From NCBI GenBank assembly GCA_934045905.1, contig OW203770.1, positions 3,038,001-3,102,000 on the forward strand: 64,000 nt of DNA, in the 5' to 3' direction. Position numbers and translations under genes: made by a program. Position 1 is the stretch's first letter; the number at the start of each line of letters is the position of its first letter. Under the pieces are notes generated by a model. That model had not been told where the DNA came from. It made no database searches and was given only the letters and a program-made list of their open reading frames with translations. Shown in pieces: positions 21,351-63,440 of this stretch. The stretch comes from Leuctra nigra. Its lineage: Eukaryota > Arthropoda > Insecta > Plecoptera > Leuctridae.

Positions 21351-21422
21351 GACCGAACCGGGGCTCAAACCCGGGACCTCTCACTTGCCGGGCGAGAGCT
21401 CTACCAACTGAGCTACCCGATC
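21351..21422 (-). tRNA. tRNA-Ala(GGC)-like sequence, probably a SINE head
   Basis: On the minus strand a 72-nt cloverleaf can be drawn: D-arm GCTCAGTTGGTAGAGC, anticodon stem CTCGC/GTGAG with loop CCGGCAA (anticodon GGC), and T-arm CCGGG-TTTGAGC-CCCGG. The acceptor stem pairs only with several G-U wobbles, and position 33 is C instead of U. Those defects favour a tRNA-derived retroposon over a working gene. Confidence 0.5.
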
Positions 21423-24994: not shown

Positions 24995-25755
24995 CAATTT
25001 ATTTGCACGCGCGACAATACCGGGCCAGTGTCTACCGACGTGTATGTTTCTTGCATACCAAAAGCTGCACGCGCAACAATACCGGGCCAGTGTCTACCGA
25101 CGTGTATGTTTCTTGCATACCAGAAGCTGCACGCGCAACAATACCGGGCCAGTGTCTACCGACGTGCATGTTTCTTGTATACCAAAAACTATACGCGCAA
25201 CAATGCCGGGCCAGTGTCTACCGACGTGTATGTTTCTTGCATACCAGAAGCTGCACGCGCAACAATACCGGGCCAGTGTTGACCGACGTGCATGTTTCTT
25301 GTATACCGAAAAACTACACGCGCAACGACACCGGGCCAGTGTTGACCGACGTGTATGTTTCTTGTATACAGAAATACTGCAAGCGCAACAATACCGGGCC
25401 CGTGTTGACCGACGTGCATGTTTCTTGTATACCGAAAAACTACACGCGCAACGACACCGGGCCAGTGTTGACCGACGTGTATGTTTCTTGCATACCAGAA
25501 GCTGCACGCGCAACAATACCGGGCCAGTGTTGACCGACGTGTATGTTTCTTGCATACCAGAAGCTGCACGCGCAACAATGCCGGGCCAGTGTTGACCGAC
25601 GTGTATGTTTCTTGTCCTACAGAAATACTGCAAGCGCAACAATACCGGGCCGGTGTTGACCGACGTGCATGTTTATTGTATACACACAAGGAGTGCACTC
25701 AACAATGCTGGTCTGGTATCAACAGGAGTGCATGTTTCTTGCGTTGCGAAACAAC
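24995..25755 (+). repeat. 62-bp minisatellite, about 11 copies plus one degenerate
   Basis: The unit contains CACGCGCAACAATACCGGGC, CAGTGTCTACCGACGTG and TATGTTTCTTGCATACC, with a small GTATG/CATAC hairpin. Since 62 is 2 mod 3, reading frames rotate and several frames on both strands stay open. These ORFs are unlikely to be proteins. Confidence 0.92.
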
Positions 25756-40148: not shown

Positions 40149-40484
40149 ACATAATATGTATTTATTCAATGCGTATGTGAGTTAGTAAGTTTTGTCTAAG
40201 CGGCCATATCATCATAGTTTAAGCTAAACTTCGGAAATGTAGTGTATTGCCATTATACAGGCAAAGCTGAAATAGACTAAGATCAATGTAGCCTGAGGTT
40301 ATAATTTAAGCTGAGGGAATAAGCTTCGAAATTGAACTGCAGTATATAATGGTAATACAGCGAGTTTTCTGAAGTGGAGTTTAAACTTAAATACCGGCCC
40401 TTAGACGAAATAATTACTCAGAATAACTCAAAACGTTGGTCAGTAAAACAATTCAGACGAAACCATTAAGTGTGAATAAAATTT

Positions 40485-40505
40485 ATGACGTGTTCAGTGG
40501 CGTGA
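40485..40505 (+). promoter_or_regulatory. Upstream ORF of the NLR gene
   Basis: ATG ACG TGT TCA GTG GCG TGA ends two bases before the main ATG at 40508. If the transcript includes it, reinitiation or leaky scanning would limit translation. The main ATG has the better context (A at -3, G at +4). Confidence 0.4.
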
Positions 40506-40507
40506 TC

Positions 40508-41956
40508 ATGGGTGTTAGTGTGCAGCAGTGGCGTGCGGTGATAGGCAGTTGGTGCAGCAGTGGCGGACCATGCAGGTGGGGGGAAGTGGAAGCAGGTTCA
40601 CGAGTGTTGCCGCTGCTTCTCCTGGCAGCACTCTTGCTGATAGCAGGCGTGGAGTTGAACCCGGGACCCAAGTCGAACCCAGGACCTAAGGAGTTGGACC
40701 CAGGACCCAATGAGTTGGACCCAGGTCCCAAGGTGTTGAACCCGGGACCCAAGGAGTTGGACCCAGGTCCCAAGGAGTTGAACCCAGGACTCAATGAGTT
40801 CCCAGGACCCAAGGAGTTGAACCCGGGACCCAAGGAGTTGGACCCAGGTCCCAAGGAGTTGGACCCAGGACTCAAGGAGTTGAACCCAGGACCCAAGGAG
40901 TTGAACCCGGGACCCAAGGAGTTGGACCCAGGTCCCAAGGAGTTGAACCCAGGACTCGATGAGTTCCCAGTACCCAAGGAGTTGAACCCGGGACCCAAGG
41001 AGTTGGACCCAGGTCCCAAGGAGTTGGACCCAGGACTCAAGGAGTTGAACCCAGGACCCAAGGAGTTGAACCCGGGACCCAAGGAGTTGAACCCAGGTCC
41101 CAAGGAGTTGAACCCAGGACTCGATGAGTTCCCAGGACCCAAGGAGTTGGACCCGGGACCCAAGACGTCGAACCCAGGACCCAAGGAAGGAAATGACGAG
41201 TCGCATGGTTCTGATTTAGACCCCCAAGAACTGTATAAAGACACGAAAGACAAGTTGATACCTGTGGCTGAATCAGAGAGGAATCAACAAATACGTGAGC
41301 TTAAGAAGAAATTGAAAGACCAGGAAAATACCACAAATAATTGGGACAAAGAAAAGTTGCAATTGGAAAAGAAAATTGATGAACTTAAGATGAATGCAGA
41401 AAAACTGGATTCTGAAAATTCACAATTAGAACAGGAAATGGCAGAACAGCAGAAGAAAGCTGAGAATGAAATCAAGGAATTGGAAAAGAAAATTAATGAA
41501 CAGAAGAAGAATGCAGAAAATCTATCTTTAGAAAAGTCACAGTTAAAACATGGAATGGAAGAACAGAAGAAAAAAGCTGAGAGTGAAACCAAGGAAGTGG
41601 AAAAGAAAATTGATGAACTCGAGAAGAAGGCAGAAAAACTAGAATCAGAAAAGTCACGGTTTAAGTTATCATCATACCTAAACACAAGGGAAAATTTGTT
41701 ACCTGTTTCTGAGCCAGAGTTGAGGAAAGTAGTGCTACATCTTAGGATAGAACTCCAAAATGGATTCAGTAAGTTGGAACAACAAATAGAAGAGCAAAAG
41801 AAGATAGCAGAAGAATTATCAAAGGAAAAGCTTCAGTTGGAAAAGAGGCTGCAAGAAGAAATAGCATTAAAGGAGAAAGCACAAGAACAAGTCAAGGAAA
41901 AGTCGCTAGGGGTTGAGAAGATTGCAGAACATCAAGGCAACGAAAAGACAATTGAG
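40508..41956 (+). CDS. NLR gene exon 1: leader, 2A-like motif, NPGP array, coiled coil
   Basis: This encodes residues 1-483 of the predicted protein. A hydrophobic segment (about residues 33-46, PLLLLAALLLIAG) runs straight into GVELNPGP (47-54). That matches the 2A consensus D-(V/I)-E-x-N-P-G-P except that D is G. There follow about 26 units of 6-7 residues (LNPGPKE, LDPGPKE, LNPGLDE, FPGPKE) to residue 227, then an acidic linker and a Lys/Glu-rich heptad coiled coil (about 240-480) in which a segment ending LIPVAESE/LLPVSEPE occurs twice. The start is the first in-frame ATG after the stop at 40424. The donor GAG|GTAAGA at 41957 leaves phase 0. Antisense ORFs over the array are shadows of the repeat. 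In sea-urchin NLRs, leader-2A N-termini act either in recoding or as signal sequences; that either applies here is inference. Confidence 0.8.
40649..41188 (+). repeat. 21-bp coding repeat (NPGP array)
   Basis: In-frame units around AAGGAGTTGAACCCAGGACC, about 26 copies. About 11 encode NPGP and 7 encode DPGP. A higher-order period of roughly eight units is visible (each block ends LNPGLxE-FPxPKE). All units keep the reading frame, which argues for selection or recent expansion. Confidence 0.9.
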
Positions 41957-42159
41957 GTAAGACAGACATTGACGACTCTTCAAGCTCCCCGATTTCCCTA
42001 TACCTAATATCTAGTCAAATAACATGGTTCACTATTTCATGTTGAGCAACGCAGATATAGATCAAATATGTTATATATTGCGCTGCTTCTTCTTATTTAC
42101 ATCGTCATCGCCTTATTGTTGTAAGTTTGTGTTTCTCATGAACATGTTTCAACTTACAG
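41957..42159 (+). other. NLR gene intron 1 (predicted)
   Basis: GTAAGA to TTTCAACTTACAG, 203 bp. Reading through would give a stop at 42005, which supports removal. Confidence 0.7.
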
Positions 42160-42188
42160 GCCGATCCAGCTGCAGCTGTGAATGCAGG
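42160..42188 (+). CDS. NLR gene exon 2 (29-nt small exon)
   Basis: The acceptor TTTCAACTTACAG precedes GCCGATCCAGCTGCAGCTG, encoding ADPAAAVNA plus two bases of a Gly codon; the donor is GCAGG|GTGAGT. It enters in phase 0 and leaves in phase 2, exactly what exon 1 and exon 3 require. No conserved domain; a linker between the coiled coil and the nuclease-like region. It is supported only by splice signals and frame. Confidence 0.6.
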
Positions 42189-44193: not shown

Positions 44194-47100
44194 TGGTTCC
44201 AATGCTGGTGAAAAACCATTTCTGAGAAAATATAAGAAGACTCCGGGACAAACGACAATGAAGTCCCAGTTGCTCGAGGTGAAGATGGCAGCACTGATCT
44301 ACATGCGCGCCATCAACAGCGGCCAGCCCTTCTTCCTCGCGACCAACATGGAGGCGGCCGGAGTCTTCGACGACATCATCATCAGAATCAAGCTGGCCGG
44401 CCAGGACAAGTGGTCGACCACGCTAATGCAATTGAAACATAAGGAATCTGGCAAAGTAGGATACGCGCCTCTTCTCAGTCTTAGCAGCAAGAGTGACTTT
44501 GGTTTGGTCAAGTACTGGGATTCATTTTTGAAGGTCAAAACTGTGTATTTGGAAACTATGAATGATTGGCCATGGGATGGTGAATTTGATGACTTTAGAT
44601 TTGTTCTCTGCACAAACGCGCAATCAGACAATATCTTAAAAGAAGATGAGAATGAGTCCATGATGTCAAAGGATAAATTGTTGGCTTCAAATCCGCAGGG
44701 CACATATTACCATTTCTCCACAACTTCTCCGATTTATAGATATATGAATGAAATTATTTCGTTCAAAAATATACTAACCGATTTAATTACTAGTATAGAA
44801 CTTCGGGCCAATGATTTTACTGACTCAGTCGAGCGTAATTTGATTGAGTCTCAAGTTGCTCCTTGCAATATTGAATTGAAATCGAAGAAAGATAATCTTA
44901 CAGGAATGCCAACAAAACAAAATGTTCAGTCAACACTTAAAGCAATGTCATTAGTTCCACATTTTCATTCATTAAAAATGTTTCTCGATAAATTCTTCCT
45001 CTACACAGATCAACCAAATGAGGGCCAACTTGACGTCTTAATCTCGCAGGAATTGAAAAGAGCGTGTCATGTTTCAAGCGAGTCAGAACGAACGTCACTT
45101 CAAAGGCAATTGGTCAATTCTGTTAGTGATTGGTGGAGCGACGTAAAACCCAAGGGGTCTTGGCTCACAGAACATTCTGATGTTTGGAGTTCCATCATGT
45201 CTTCCAGAATAGCTCAGTTGTCCCACAAGAAACTCTCACAGCTAAGGGAAGTGGCAGTCAAGTTTGAGACCAAAGCACTCGAACGTACTTTCAGAACTCT
45301 CCAGGAATGTCGAAAGAATAACATTCTCGTGAAATCAGGAACTAATTCCCTCGTAGCGTCCCAAGTGCATCAGGCTTTGGTGCATCACCAAGTTCATAAC
45401 TACATCTTCACTGGAGCAAAGGAGATGCTGAAGAGGAAGGTGGAGATGATTTCTGTTTGGCAGAGCAGCTTGTGTCAAGGTCTCATCATTGATTGCGATC
45501 AAACATTGTCAGACGAGGAGTCAAATGATCTTGCCACTGTGTTGTTAGAAGTCTTAACTTTCCAGGTTCGTCTGGCAGTTGTCTTGATCTCAGACAAACA
45601 TTGTGGTCTGACTCGAGCTCTTCAACCAGTGTTATTGCAATCAAGAGCTGTGTGTCAGTGGAGTGACCTGACTTCGGAATCCCAAAGCGAGCTGTTGAAG
45701 TATCCAGTAATGTTCCAAGGTCACGAGTTGCCTCTGAGCGAAATAGTGGGCAATGACGTCACTCAGATCAATCAGCAGTTGCAAGGAACTGGACTGTCAA
45801 AGCTCTTGAACACAGGACTGCGAGTTGGAAAAGACTTGGAATCATTGATTGATTATTACATTCCTCGTAGATTGACCCGAGACGGTAAGGAAGTTGCTAT
45901 TGAATCCTTGGCCGATGTTCCAGACAGAGTAGTGGTGTTGATCGCTGAGCCAGGGATGGGAAAGACAGTTTTGGTAACTCATTTGACTCGAGCAGCAAAG
46001 CTTGCCGATCCCTCCACTTGGATAGTGAGAGTCAACTTGAACGACTGCACACACTACCTGGCTAACTTAAATCCGGTTAACATCAACACAGCTGCAACTA
46101 TCGACTTCCTCACTCACTTTGCCAGATCTTCAGATTGGAAAGAAATCATATTTAAACATCGATTGTTGTTCTCCGGGAAGATAATCCTATTTGTTGATGG
46201 AGTCGATGAAGTCTGTCCGCACTATGAGACCTCAGTTTGTTCCCTTCTGAAAGAACTTCTTAACACCAAGATCCAGACTTTGTGGGTAACATCTCGACAC
46301 GTTGCAAAACAAAGTCTCGAGAATGTTTTGGATGTAGCGTCTTTCGCCCTTGTCCCTTTCTCGATTGAGGATCAAAAACAATTCTTTGAAAATTTCTGGC
46401 AGAAGAAATGTAATCACGTCAACCGGTCGCTGAGTGAATTTCTTAGTAAAGTGATGGAACTGTGTTCTGATGGAATAAGTGAGGGATATCTTGCTTCATC
46501 ATTTCCCCAACAGACTCGGATGTTGGCAGAATATTTTGATCCCCATCTTGATGAGTTCCTAAATAGAGGTTTTCTTGATTCATTTCCTGAAAAAATAAAT
46601 ATCTTTGAACTGTATGAAAGTTTTGTGGAAAAGAAGCTACGGGAATACTCTTTGGAAAAGAAAAAAGCCGATGAATTAAACTCTGCTGTAAAAATTGACC
46701 ATGAAATTCTTGTGAGACAATATCGCATAAGCCACATGCATGCAGCTATGTTAGTGCTGCTCTCTGGTGATGAATTGATGGAAATTCGTCTCCCACGTAC
46801 TTTGAATGATCAAGATATAGAGAGTCTTCAGATAACAGGAATTATTGACAAGGTAGTCGATAAGAAGCCCTTCTTCGTTCACAGAACTTTTGCTGAGTAT
46901 TTTTCATCTCTTTGGATATCAGAAAACTATGAGCGAGCACTAGACTTTCTCAGAAGAACTCTTTTCGAACAACGATTTAACTGTGTTAAATGTTTCCTTG
47001 ACCTCAAACTTTGTAACTCCAAACTACATGAAGCTGTGATAAATAGGGACGTAAGTACTATCAAAAGTTTGGCTGCAAAGTCAGGGGGCTTGAAATTGTT

Positions 47101-47884
47101 CAATAAGAAGAAAACAAACATCAACCAAGTGGACTTGGGAGGTCGAACTGCTTTGCATCTTTCAGTGGTCAAGAGCAGTTTGGACAGCAACACGGATTAC
47201 TTTGAAATCACACGCGAGCTTTTGAAGCACAAAGCTGACATTGAAGTGAAGGACAAGCTGCTACAATGGCGGCCATTGCAATATGCTGCTGGATCTGGTT
47301 CATGGAAGATGGCGGGGTTGTTGCTACAGGCGGGGGGTCGGGTTGATGACATGGAAGTAGCCAGACAGATCGTAAAGGCGGGTGTAATCAAAGAGTTCAT
47401 CGAGTTCTTGTCAAATCCAAACCAAAGTCCTGACGATCTCTTGCTTCTTGCCTCACAACACGGGGACCTGAGTGTAGTTCAGTTCCTTGTTGACGATTGC
47501 GGGGCCGACGTCAATTGCCGTGGATTTGGTTGGACTCCGATGCACTGGTGTGCATTTGGCGGCCATGTTGACGTGATGCGTTTCTTGTTGGAGAGAAACG
47601 CATCCTGCGACGAGGTCGATGATGACTGTGCACGGCCAATGCACTGGGCTTCGACAGCACAGGTTGTGGAGTTGCTCGTTGAGAACGGAGCTTCGGTGAA
47701 TGAAGTCAACAAGCAAGGATATTCGCCACTCGCAGTCGTTCTAAAGGGAACGCAAGTTGAAGTGTTCAAATGTCTTTTGAATCACGGGGCTGATCTCGAT
47801 GCGGTGAAGGAGTTGGATAACTCAACACATTGGAAATCATTCAGAATGGGCTTGATAGACTTGGAGGAGTTGTTCGGTCTCTGA
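44194..47884 (+). CDS. NLR gene exon 3: nuclease-like domain, NACHT, ankyrin repeats
   Basis: The acceptor CTTGATTCCACAG at 44193 and the phase-2 start join exon 2 to a frame running to the stop at 47884 (whole protein 1722 aa). An internal ATG at 44258 gives a 1208-aa version; numbering here starts from it. Residues 7-62 have a helix followed by E32, FDDII (D38, D39) and QLKHK (Q58-x-K60), the order of a PD-(D/E)XK fold in the QxK variant of Mrr/Cap4-type nucleases. Walker A AEPGMGKT is at 563-570 and Walker B ILFVDGVDE near 643-651, a NACHT/STAND ATPase. Helical sequence follows, then about six ankyrin repeats (about 958-1185: GGRTALHLSV, FGWTPMHWCAFGG, QGYSPLAVVLKG). The likely role is a cytosolic sensor that oligomerises on nucleotide exchange. 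The NACHT and ankyrin calls are firm; the nuclease call is inference. Confidence 0.9.
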
Positions 47885-58624: not shown

Positions 58625-61600
58625 TGATATCGTTGTCACAATGTACAACAAAATTACTACCCTTACATCTACCCCAACCAGTCAGTGGTCATCACTTGCA
58701 ACGCGGACAAGAGTCTGGTCGCATGTCAGTTCTACAGAGACTCTATTGCTTGTATCTTCCCACAGGCTCTGATCCACCCTCTATCACAATACAACCAAAG
58801 AACTACGCTCACATCTACCATAACCAGTCAGTGGTCATCACTTGCAACTCCATCAAGAGTCTGGTCGCATGTCAGTTCTACAGAGACTCTATTGCTTGTA
58901 TCTTCCCACAGGCTCTGATCCACCCTCTATCACAACACAACCGAAGTACTACACTTTCATCAACTCCAACCAGATAGTGGTCATCACTTGCAACGCGGAC
59001 ATGAGTCTGGTCGCATGTCAGTTCTACAGAGACTCTATTGCTTGTATCTTCCCACAGGCTCTGGTCCACCCTCTATCACAATACAACCGAAGTACTACGC
59101 TCACATCTACCATAACCAGTCAGTGGTCATCACTTGCAACGCGGACAAGAGTCTGGTCGCATGTCAGTTCTACAGAGACTCTATTGCTTGTATCTTCCCA
59201 CAGGCTCTGGTCCACCCTCTATCACAATACAACCGAAGTACTACACTTTCATCAACTCCAACCAGTCAGTGGTCATCACTTGCAACTCCATCAAGAGTCT
59301 GGTCGCATGTCAGTTCTACAGAGACTCTATTGCTTGTATCTTCCCACAGGCTCTGATCCACCCTCTATCACAATACAACCGAAGTACTACGCTCACATCT
59401 ACCCCAACCAGTCAGTGGTCATCACTTGCAACGCGGACAAGAGTCTGGTCGCATGTCAGTTCTACAGAGACTCTATTGCTTGTATCTTCCCACAGGCTCT
59501 GATCCACCCTCTATCACAATACAACCGAAGTACTACGCTCACATCAACTCCAACCAGTCCGTGGTCATCACTTGCAACGCGGACAAGAGTCTGGTCGCAT
59601 GTCAGTTCTACAGAGACTCTATTGCTTGTATCTTCCCACAGGCTCTGATCCACCCTCTATCACAACACAACCGAAGTACTACGCTCACATCTACTCCAAC
59701 CAGTCAGTGGTCACCACTTGCAACGCGGACAAGAGTCTGGTCGCATGTCAGTTCTACAGAGACTCTATTGCTTGTATCTTCCCACAGACAATTCTCCACC
59801 CTCTATCACAATACAACCGAAGTACTACGCTCACATCTACTCCAACCAGTCAGTGGTCATCACTTGCAACGCGGACAAGAGTCTGGTCGCATGTCAGTTC
59901 TACAGAGACTCTATTGCTTGTATCTTCCCACAGGCTCTGATTCGCCCTCTATCACAATACAACCGAAGTACTACACTTTCATCAACTCCAACCAGTCAGT
60001 GGTCATCACTTGCAACTCCATCAAGAGTCTGGTCGCATGTCAGTTCTACAGAGACTCTATTGCTTGTATCTTCCCACAGGCTCTGATCCACCCTCTATCA
60101 CAACACAACCGAAGTACTACGCTCACATCTACCCCAACCAGTCAGTGGTCATCACTTGCAACGCGGACAAGAGTCTGGTCGCATGTCAGTTCTACAGAGA
60201 CTCTATTGCTTGTATCTTTCCACAGACTATTCTCCACCCTCTATCACAATACAACCGAAGTACTACGCTTACATCAACCCCAACCAGTCAGTGGTCATCA
60301 CTTGCAACGCGGACAAGAGTCTGGTCGCATGTCAGTTCTACAGAGACTCTATTGCTTGTATCTTTCCACAGACTATTCTCCACCCTCTATCACAATACAA
60401 CCGAAGTACTACGCTTACATCTACCCCAACCAGTTAGTGGTTATCACTTGCAACGCGGACAAGAGTCTGGTCGCATGTCAGTTCTACAGAGACTCTATTG
60501 CTTGTATCTTTCCACAGACTATTCTCCACCCTCTATCACAATACAACCGAAGTACTACGCTCACATCTACTCCAACCAGTCAGTGGTCATCACTTGCAAC
60601 GCGGACAAGAGTCTGGTCGCATGTCAGTTCTACAGAGACTCTATTGCTTGTATCTTCCCACAGGCTCTGATCCACCCTCTATCACAACACAACCGAAGTA
60701 CTACGCTTACATCTACCCCAACCAGTCAGTGGTCATCACTTGCAACGCGGACAAGAGTCTGGTCGCATGTCAGTTCTACAGAGACTCTATTGCTTGTATC
60801 TTTCCACAGACTATTCTCCACCCTCTATCACAATACAACCGAAGTACTACGCTCACATCTACCCCAACCAGTCAGTGGTCATCACTTGCAACGCGGACAA
60901 GAGTCTGGTCGCATGTCAGTTCTACAGAGACTCTATTGCTTGTATCTTTCCACAGACTATTCTCCACCCTCTATCACAATACAACCGAAGTACTACGCTT
61001 ACATCTACCCCAACCAGTCAGTGGTCATCACTTGCAACGCGGACAAGAGTCTGGTCGCATGTCAGTTCTACAGAGACTCTATTGCTTGTATCTTCCCACA
61101 GGCTCTGATCCACCCTCTATCACAACACAACCGAAGTACTACGCTCACATCTACCCCAACCAGTCAGTGGTCATCACTTGCAACGCGGACAAGAGTCTGG
61201 TCGCATGTCAGTTCTACAGAGACTCTATTGCTTGTATCTTTCCACAGACTATTCTCCACCCTCTATCACAATACAACCGAAGTACTACGCTTACATCTAC
61301 CCCAACCAGTCAGTGGTCATCACTTGCAACGCGGACAAGAGTCTGGTCGCATGTCAGTTCTACAGAGACTCTATTGCTTGTATCTTCCCACAGGCTCTGA
61401 TCCACCCTCTATCACAACACAACCGAAGTACTACGCTCACATCTACCCCAACCAGTCAGTGGTCATCACTTGCAACGCGGACAAGAGTCTGGTCGCATGT
61501 CAGTTCTACAGAGACTCTATTGCTTGTATCTTTCCACAGACTATTCTCCACCCTCTATCACAATACAACCGAAGTACGCTTACATCAACTTCAACCAGTC

Positions 61601-63440
61601 AGTGGTAACTTGCAACGCGGACAAGAGTCTGTTTGCATGTCAGTTCTACAGAGACTCTATTGTTTGTATCTTCCCACAGACTCTGATCCACCCTCTATCA
61701 CAATACAACCGAAGTACTACGCTTACATCTACCCCAACCAGTCAGTGGTCATCACTTGCAACGCGGACAAGAGTCTGGTCGCATGTCAGTTCTACAGAGA
61801 CTCTATTGCTTGTATCTTTCCACAGACTATTCTCCACCCTCTATCACAATACAACCGAAGTACTACGCTCACATCTACTCCAACCAGTCAGTGGTCATCA
61901 CTTGCAACCTGGACAAGAGTCTGGTCGCATGTCAGTTCTACAGAGACTCTATTGCTTGTATCTTTCCACAGACTATTCTCCACCCTCTATCACAATACAA
62001 CCGAAGTACTACGCTCACATCTACCCCAACCAGTCAGTGGTCATCACTTGCAACGCGGACAAGAGTCTGGTCGCATGTCAGTTCTACAGAGACTCTATTG
62101 CTTGTATCTTCCCACAGGCTCTGATCCACCATCTATCACAATACAACCAAAGAACTACGCTCACATCAACCCCAACCAGTCAGTGGTCATCACTTGCAAC
62201 GCGGACAAGAGTCTGGTCGCATGTCAGTTCTACAGAGACTCTATTGCTTGTATCTTTCCACAGACTATTCTCCACCCTCTATCACAATACAACCGAAGTA
62301 CTACGCTCACATCTACCCCAACCAGTCAGTGGTCATCACTTGCAACGCGGACAAGAGTCTGGTCGCATGTCAGTTCTACAGAGACTCTATTGCTTGTATC
62401 TTACCACAGGCTCTGACCAACCCTCTATCACAATACAACCGAAGTACTACGCTTTCAACAACCCCGACCAGTCAGTGGTCATCACTTGCAACGCGGACAA
62501 GAGTCTGGTCGCATGTCAGTTCTACAGAGACTCTATTGCTTGTATCTTCCCACAGGCTCTGACCAACCCTCTATCACAATACAACCGAAGTACTACGCTC
62601 ACATCAACTCCAACCAGTCAGTGGTCATCACTTGCAACGCGGACAAGAGTCTGGTCGCATGTCAGTTCTACAGAGACTCTATTGCTTGTATCTTCCCACA
62701 GGCTCTGGTCCACCCTCTATCACAATACAACCGAAGTACTACGCTCACATCTACCCCAACCAGTCAGTGGTCATCACTTGCAACGCGGACAAGAGTCTGG
62801 TCGCATGTCAGTTCTACAGAGACTCTATTGCTTGTATCTTCCCACAGGCTCTGATCCACCCTCTATCACAATACAACCGAAGTACTACACTTTCATCTAC
62901 TCCAACCAGTTAGTGGTTATCACTTGCAACGCGGACAAGAGTCTGGTCGCATGTCAGTTCTACAGAGACTCTATTGCTTGTATCTTTCCACAGACTATTC
63001 TCCACCCTCTATCACAATACAACCGAAGTACTACGCTTACATCTACCCCAACCAGTCAGTGGTCATCACTTGCAACGCGGACAAGAGTCTGGTCGCATGT
63101 CAGTTCTACAGAGACTCTATTGCTTGTATCTTTCCACAGGCACTGCTCCACCCTCTATCACAACACAACCGAAGTACGCTTTCATCAATCCGAACCAGTC
63201 ACTGATCGTCACTTGCAACGCGGACAAGAGTCTGGTTGCATGTCAGTTCTACAGAGACTCTATTGCTTGTATCTTCCCACAGGATCTGATCCACATGCTA
63301 TCACAATACAACCAAAGAACTACGCCCACATCAACTCCGACCAGTCAGTAGTCATCACTTGCAACGCGGACAGGAGTCTGGTCGCATGTCAGTTCTACAG
63401 AGACGACGTGGGTCTGATCGACCTGAGTCTTGGTAAAGCG
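58625..63440 (+). repeat. 146-bp array, 33 copies, derived from the 5' half of an Ig exon
   Basis: The conserved phrase GAGTCTGGTCGCATGTCAG occurs first at 58711 and last at 63374. That distance is 32 periods of 146 bp once three 3-bp deletions (two near 61577-61605, one near 63176) are allowed. Each unit holds the splice acceptor TATCTTCCCACAG or TATCTTTCCACAG, the strand-B motif SVVITCNAD and the VACQFYRD motif. Units differ mainly just after the acceptor (GCTCTGATCC versus ACTATTCTCC) and at CATCTACCCC/CATCAACTCC. Since 146 is 2 mod 3, each frame continues into the next frame of the following unit, and all three are open. The overlapping ORFs of 90-750 codons here are therefore not separate genes. 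Confidence 0.93.

Follow-up and report, generated by a model that had tools for sequence, protein, structure and literature searches.

The window (the whole 64,000-nt stretch analyzed, C9:3038001-3102000) contains a gene model for a NACHT-ankyrin receptor that begins with a hydrophobic leader ending in a StopGo/2A core. This leader-2A is a module of the NACHT-ankyrin receptor family and lies upstream of 15 of the 49 NLR loci found in the 536-Mb genome searched. The initial annotation had placed a 2A-like leader at an NLR N-terminus, and its recurrence in the same genome supports that placement. Our favored reading, held with a little better than even confidence, is that each receptor would carry one N-terminal StopGo/signal switch and that the array behind it would be a Pro-Gly spacer, grown from the tail of the switch and made of units that do not skip. 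The leader is probably shed by a ribosome skip. We infer skipping, targeting and the spacer role from sequence, and the gene layout comes from a model.

Exon 1 and the receptor gene

Exon 1 lies within an open frame (40427-42007) with its ATG at 40508 on the forward strand. It had been described as a hydrophobic leader running into AGVELNPGP, followed by about 26 short units, about 11 with NPGP and many with ELNPGP, and all of this was confirmed (26 units, 11 with NPGP, 8 ending in ELNPGP). The ORF start also stood. The end of the array was corrected to 41182, and the core octapeptide is GVELNPGP at 40646-40669; AGVELNPGP begins at 40643. The features of the gene model are as follows.

40508..41956, + strand: exon 1, with leader-2A, NPGP array and coiled-coil-like region (open frame; donor GAG/GTAAGA)
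40508..40645, + strand: leader before the 2A core, MGVSVQQWRAVIGSW...LPLLLLAALLLIA (hydrophobic core; homologous in paralogues)
40646..40669, + strand: StopGo/2A core GVELNPGP (fits the core definition of PMC12846837)
Between 40666 and 40667, + strand: predicted skip point, NPG/P
40652..41182, + strand: tandem array of 26 units, unit 1 being the 2A tail itself, with a 21-nt unit and a 165-nt higher-order repeat (TRF, unit parse)
41183..41956, + strand: Glu/Lys-rich coiled-coil-like region with 117-nt repeats at 41361-41661 (hydrophobic spacing peaks at 4, 7 and 11)
42160..42188, + strand: exon 2, 29 nt (splice consensus and frame; present in the sister gene too, splice sites included)
44194..47884, + strand: exon 3, with pre-NACHT domain, NACHT, ankyrin repeats and stop (frame, Pfam)
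44243..44734, + strand: pre-NACHT domain, possible PD-(D/E)XK nuclease fold (suggestive)
45926..46399, + strand: NACHT domain (Pfam PF05729, 35.6 bits, cut-off 26.7)
47441..47704, + strand: ankyrin repeats, best stretch (Pfam PF12796, Ank_2, 126.4 bits)

The hydrophobic core of the leader has a mean Kyte-Doolittle hydropathy of 3.07. GVELNPGP conforms to the StopGo core (D/G/C/N)(V/I)ExNPGP, as widened by Li et al. 2026 (PMC12846837). The ALLLIA that precedes it agrees with motif 5 of that study, which is L-rich, ends in (A/G/S)G at position 12 (p12) and prefers P at p15, but p15 is L here. The array divides into 26 in-frame units with zero remainder (11 NPGP, 7 DPGP, 3 NPGL, 2 DPGL, 2 FPGP and 1 FPVP), and TRF reports a period of 21 nt in 26.1 copies over 40651-41187, with a higher-order period of 165 nt in 3.3 copies. 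Six-frame translation of the window contains NPGP 12 times, 11 of them in the array and one at 21368, compared to a mean of 0.3 and a maximum of 2 in 20 shuffled windows. Pfam returned zero family matches on exon 1.

Two other tandem repeats were seen in the window. A 146-nt unit is repeated 32.7 times with 93% matches at 58644-63404; the unit is not a multiple of 3, long open frames run in all three forward frames, and the end reads like an Ig-type exon. At 25004-25683, a 62-nt unit is repeated 10.9 times and has long open frames on both strands.

The splice model, built on consensus sites and the reading frame, joins exon 1 (to 41956) through exon 2 (42160-42188) to exon 3 (from 44194) in frame and gives 1722 amino acids with zero internal stops. 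Together with its splice sites, exon 2 matches the sister gene (L068, the nearest paralogue, C9:2.29 Mb) at 38 of 45 nt, compared to 21-23 in five shuffles. It was sought in ten loci and matched only in this one; for most of the remaining loci the intron in question is not covered. The model has the NLR order of a NACHT followed by repeats (NACHT and Ank_2 by Pfam). The repeats are ankyrin, and LRR was absent in a Pfam scan of nine families.

The pre-NACHT domain may be a nuclease effector carried by an animal NLR, on suggestive evidence. E28, D59-D60, Q79 and K81 are at least 90% conserved in an alignment of 12 rows, which has the E...D...QxK residue pattern of PD-(D/E)XK nucleases; E28 falls below 90% in 19 rows. 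The predicted order of elements is restriction-endonuclease-like. PADLOC and Pfam gave zero matches on the domain, and in a PDB sequence search (alignment A3) ankyrins dominate among the 60 of 626 matches listed.

Leader-2A elements across the genome

A search with the NLR exon gave at least 70 matches, a lower bound because 51 of 220 candidates were scored, and these were grouped into the 49 loci. A search with the leader gave 32 matches, several of which are array pieces of the same two genes. The pattern (G/C/W/stop)(V/I/M)ExNPGP is encoded at 28 sites in the genome and its reversal at none. Sixteen of the 28 G/C-type cores lie 0.9-8.4 kb upstream of the 15 NLR loci on the same strand, when 0.02 would be expected within 15 kb; the downstream side has 0. 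Chance as the source of the NPGP array or of the NLR-linked cores was excluded by the shuffles and by this expectation. Position 12 is G in 12 of the 16 and C in 4. With any residue at p12 the pattern occurs at 133 sites, 100 of them listed, and the p12 survey is complete for G, C, W, stop, D and N.

D/N-type cores number 79 genome-wide, grouped in few repeated DNA sequences, and none is upstream of an NLR locus (Fisher P 7e-12 vs G/C-type). At six D-type loci (L001, L004, L073, L079, L080 and L081) a PHD-like stretch follows the core by eye, and at L001 Pfam identifies PHD and endonuclease. Among the other 12 G/C-type sites, nine of which were characterized, L019, L026, L028 and, weakly, L032 have related or L-rich leaders with no NLR match nearby; at two further sites the core DNA is the same as in L082, and at three it is the same as in L037 (read from a single copy of each).

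Protein similarity identified 14 NLR-linked leader exons, and every one of them keeps the core. A G/C-type core within 15 kb is absent from 34 of the 49 NLR loci, and L043, L046 and L064 are leader-less members inside leader-bearing clades, which counts against a universal need for the leader.

Several leaders have variant layouts. The leader paralogue L017 (C11:12.975 Mb) contains two complete GCVELNPGP cores at a distance of 75 nt, which makes double skipping more plausible there than in the array of the window. In one paralogue (L083 and L030, C9:21.816-21.818 Mb), about 1.4 kb separates the MGVCVQQWRAVIGGW part from the hydrophobic-2A part downstream of it, as might result from an intron within the leader. 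In L022 and L018 (C8), the QWRA-VGRW part is duplicated before a single 2A core.

Among 11 aligned leaders, the invariant positions are M1, G2, QWRA, G13, W15, some of the hydrophobic stretch, and the V, E, N, P, G and P of the core. Between E and N, p15 is occupied by L, W, S or M in these 11, with T also found among the NLR-linked cores, and core codons differ synonymously between leaders. The fixed V-E-x-NPGP with a free x is the pattern of StopGo constraint more than that of a plain signal peptide, though the conservation of the core is partly selection of matches because queries and patterns contained it. Compared to the sister gene, dN/dS is 0.22 for the leader (6 silent and 4 replacement changes, so the value rests on 10 changes) and 0.38 for the NLR exon; in seven other leader pairs the value ranges between 0.22 and 0.73. 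Over the 57 codons that follow the array, the gene differs from its sister by 4 replacement changes and 0 silent ones.

Distances between leaders correlate with those between their NLRs (Mantel r 0.88, 10 pairs, P 5e-5). A quick tree was made for 29 NLRs (of 30 loci one was dropped, and two leader-bearing loci are outside the set); leader presence on it needs 5 changes, compared to 9.8 in shuffles, of which 1 in 500 was as low. The leader's history on this tree may be old presence with losses, or several gains. The clustered presence and the correlated distances fit descent with losses. Several acquisitions of the NLR leaders from mobile elements, in place of a single inheritance followed by loss, would explain why they resemble leaders of transposon-like genes: L082 and L035 start MGIS..VWRA.IG..., have a C2H2-like stretch behind, and match the leaders at E 1.4e-5 and 8.2e-5, while L037 shows weak similarity (E 0.09-0.25). 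The 5 changes required on the tree also agree with repeated uptake, but presence is clustered and leader distances track NLR distances, and we consider repeated uptake unlikely.

The related leaders on L082 and L035 could also mean that exon 1 is transposon-derived, or is a separate small gene that merely sits upstream of the receptor gene. We give this very little credence, as the splice model is in frame, the sister gene retains exon 2, order and strand are alike at 15 loci against the 0.02 expected, and leader and NLR distances correlate.

Proposed skipping and targeting, and the array

In the mechanism we favor, the leader would combine a hydrophobic targeting sequence with a StopGo/2A element that has G or C at position 12. 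The nascent ...LLLIAGVELNPG in the exit tunnel would block the next Gly-Pro bond, the 53-residue leader would be released, and translation would restart at Pro. By analogy with the sea-urchin NLR leader-2A, the leader-less receptor, which would begin with Pro-Lys in the array, would remain cytosolic, and a failure to skip would leave the leader in place and send the receptor to the ER and the secretory route.

The replacement of D by G in the core had been suspected of abolishing skipping. Among RNA-virus StopGo elements, however, G12 is as prevalent as D12, and D12G and D12C are cited as functional in the accessible text of PMC12846837. In view of the reported function of G and C variants, and of the G or C at p12 in each of the 16 NLR-linked cores, we rejected D-to-G as a loss of function.

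A simpler explanation of the leader is that it serves as a signal peptide or membrane anchor and that its 2A-like end is inactive. The leaders do have a strong hydrophobic stretch, targeting alone would also conserve them, and the L-rich G12 class is outside the motifs assayed (four motifs, not including motif 5, in the accessible text of PMC12846837). But a signal peptide would not be expected to hold V-E-x-NPGP fixed around a free x, as StopGo would; every one of the 16 NLR-linked cores has G or C at p12, the p12 classes listed being G, C, W, stop, D and N; and L017 repeats the whole core. Overall, an inactive 2A-like end seems quite unlikely to us.

The array would be a tandem expansion of 2A-tail DNA common to the sister gene only. 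The forward strand of the window has five copies of the leader 18-mer GAGTTGAACCCGGGACCC, one of them in the leader itself and the other four in the array; the reverse strand has 0. Its presence in both leader and array indicates that the array and the 2A tail share an origin, in support of the earlier proposal that the array grew by duplication of the 2A end. DNA encoding GPKEL(N/D)PGP is found at two loci genome-wide, with 10 sites in the window gene and 5 in the sister, whose array has nine units and whose coiled coil is longer.

The initial annotation had offered two functions for the array: a graded skipping or stalling cassette, and a spacer. As a cassette, each successive NPGP unit would pause or skip to a degree, and together they would adjust both how much receptor is made and where its N-terminus falls. 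NPGP is retained in 11 of the 26 units and ELNPGP in 8, the paralogue L017 has two full cores in tandem, and picornaviruses with multiple 2A copies exist, some of which end translation without restart (PMC11512398, accessible text). However, only unit 1 fits the StopGo core; units 2-26 give 0 of 25 matches even when rare active variants are included. N is missing from 12 of the 26 units, an L-rich stretch precedes none of them, and the array is found at two loci only. Three 165-nt copies compared with one another vary at 14 codons, and at 11 of these (79%) the residue differs as well, when 62 to 78% is expected without selection. As the copies thus change without constraint at the protein level, we read the array as a spacer free to drift. 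With one core in 26 units, 12 units lacking N and residue changes at 11 of 14 variable codons, the sequence gives no support to the cassette, which we consider highly unlikely, and the spacer is the better fit to the missing cores and the codon drift. The array would then be an extended, charged, Pro-Gly-rich spacer that separates the coiled coil from the skip site, and skipping would not occur at its units.

Comparison with known systems

A database protein search found 24 NLR relatives, and all 10 with an organism name are insects; another gave 7 matches that are apparently ankyrin-driven. A leader-only search of public NLR-length proteins matched 0 of 86 candidates at E <= 10, and NPGP is present in 0 of 31 database proteins examined. 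Gene models often miss the first exon, a caveat to this last count. In the literature searched, with most subscription journals outside its coverage, we found no NPGP array and no animal NLR family with 2A besides that of the sea urchin.

Combining these results, we tentatively propose, at somewhat less than even confidence, that a second animal lineage, probably arthropod, places an immune-receptor family behind a G/C12 StopGo leader. One mRNA would yield a cytosolic, nuclease-armed NACHT-ankyrin sensor along with a smaller amount of a secretory form, the leader determining the ratio of the two; the leader would be a mobile N-terminal cassette common with transposon-like genes, and in one sister pair its tail would have become a spacer array. 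If true, StopGo would be a device used repeatedly to put the same receptor into two compartments. With roughly 15 natural leaders available in a single genome, skipping rate could be compared directly with receptor placement. These leaders are of the L-rich G12 and C12 type, which is outside the motifs assayed in the 2026 study (motif 5; PMC12846837, accessible text).

Bacterial Cap4 and Avs3 are nuclease-armed defence proteins. The pre-NACHT domain is weakly like theirs, but it belongs to an animal gene and has no sequence-family match in PADLOC or Pfam.

The leader-2A shares (A/G/S)G at p11-p12 and (V/I)ExNPGP with motif 5 of the RNA-virus StopGo elements. In contrast to these, it is at the N-terminus of a cellular receptor gene, with L, W, S, M or T at p15, where motif 5 prefers P (PMC12846837, accessible text). 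Picornaviruses with multiple 2A have several NPGP in tandem, like the array, but each of their copies is its own 2A, whereas the array units lack the core (PMC11512398, accessible text).

Non-LTR retrotransposons of the PHD and endonuclease type (L001, L080) also have a 2A core near the N-terminus; theirs has D at p12, and 0 of 79 D/N cores are near NLR loci. At the retrotransposon-like L080 (C2:417740-418110), two D-type cores in tandem (GDIEMNPGP and GDVETNPGP) are followed by a PHD-like stretch, and copies of this core pair are found in many places.

StopGo is described as rare in cellular genes, and the cellular example cited is the sea-urchin NLRs (PMC12846837, PMC11512398). About 35% of these (85 of 241) are reported to have 2A-like sequences; an N-terminal 2A from one such NLR skips at about 80% in vitro by the authors' qualitative estimate, and molecules that fail to skip enter the secretory pathway (PMC4981915). 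SpNLR2A (Roulston et al. 2016) and the genes described here both have a hydrophobic N-terminal leader ending in a 2A-like core in a multi-gene NLR family. The SpNLR2A core is D(V/I)ExNPGP, its leader has 26 residues, it is of the LRR type, and no array is reported in the accessible text of PMC4981915. Here, by the gene model, the 2A-like leader on an NLR is shared, but p12 is G or C in place of D, the leader has about 53 residues, ankyrin repeats stand in place of LRR, an NPGP array follows, and the host is likely of a different phylum. An N-terminal 2A on NLRs is already known from the sea urchin, and the family described here resembles it in another build that differs by its G/C core, its ankyrin repeats and perhaps a nuclease effector.
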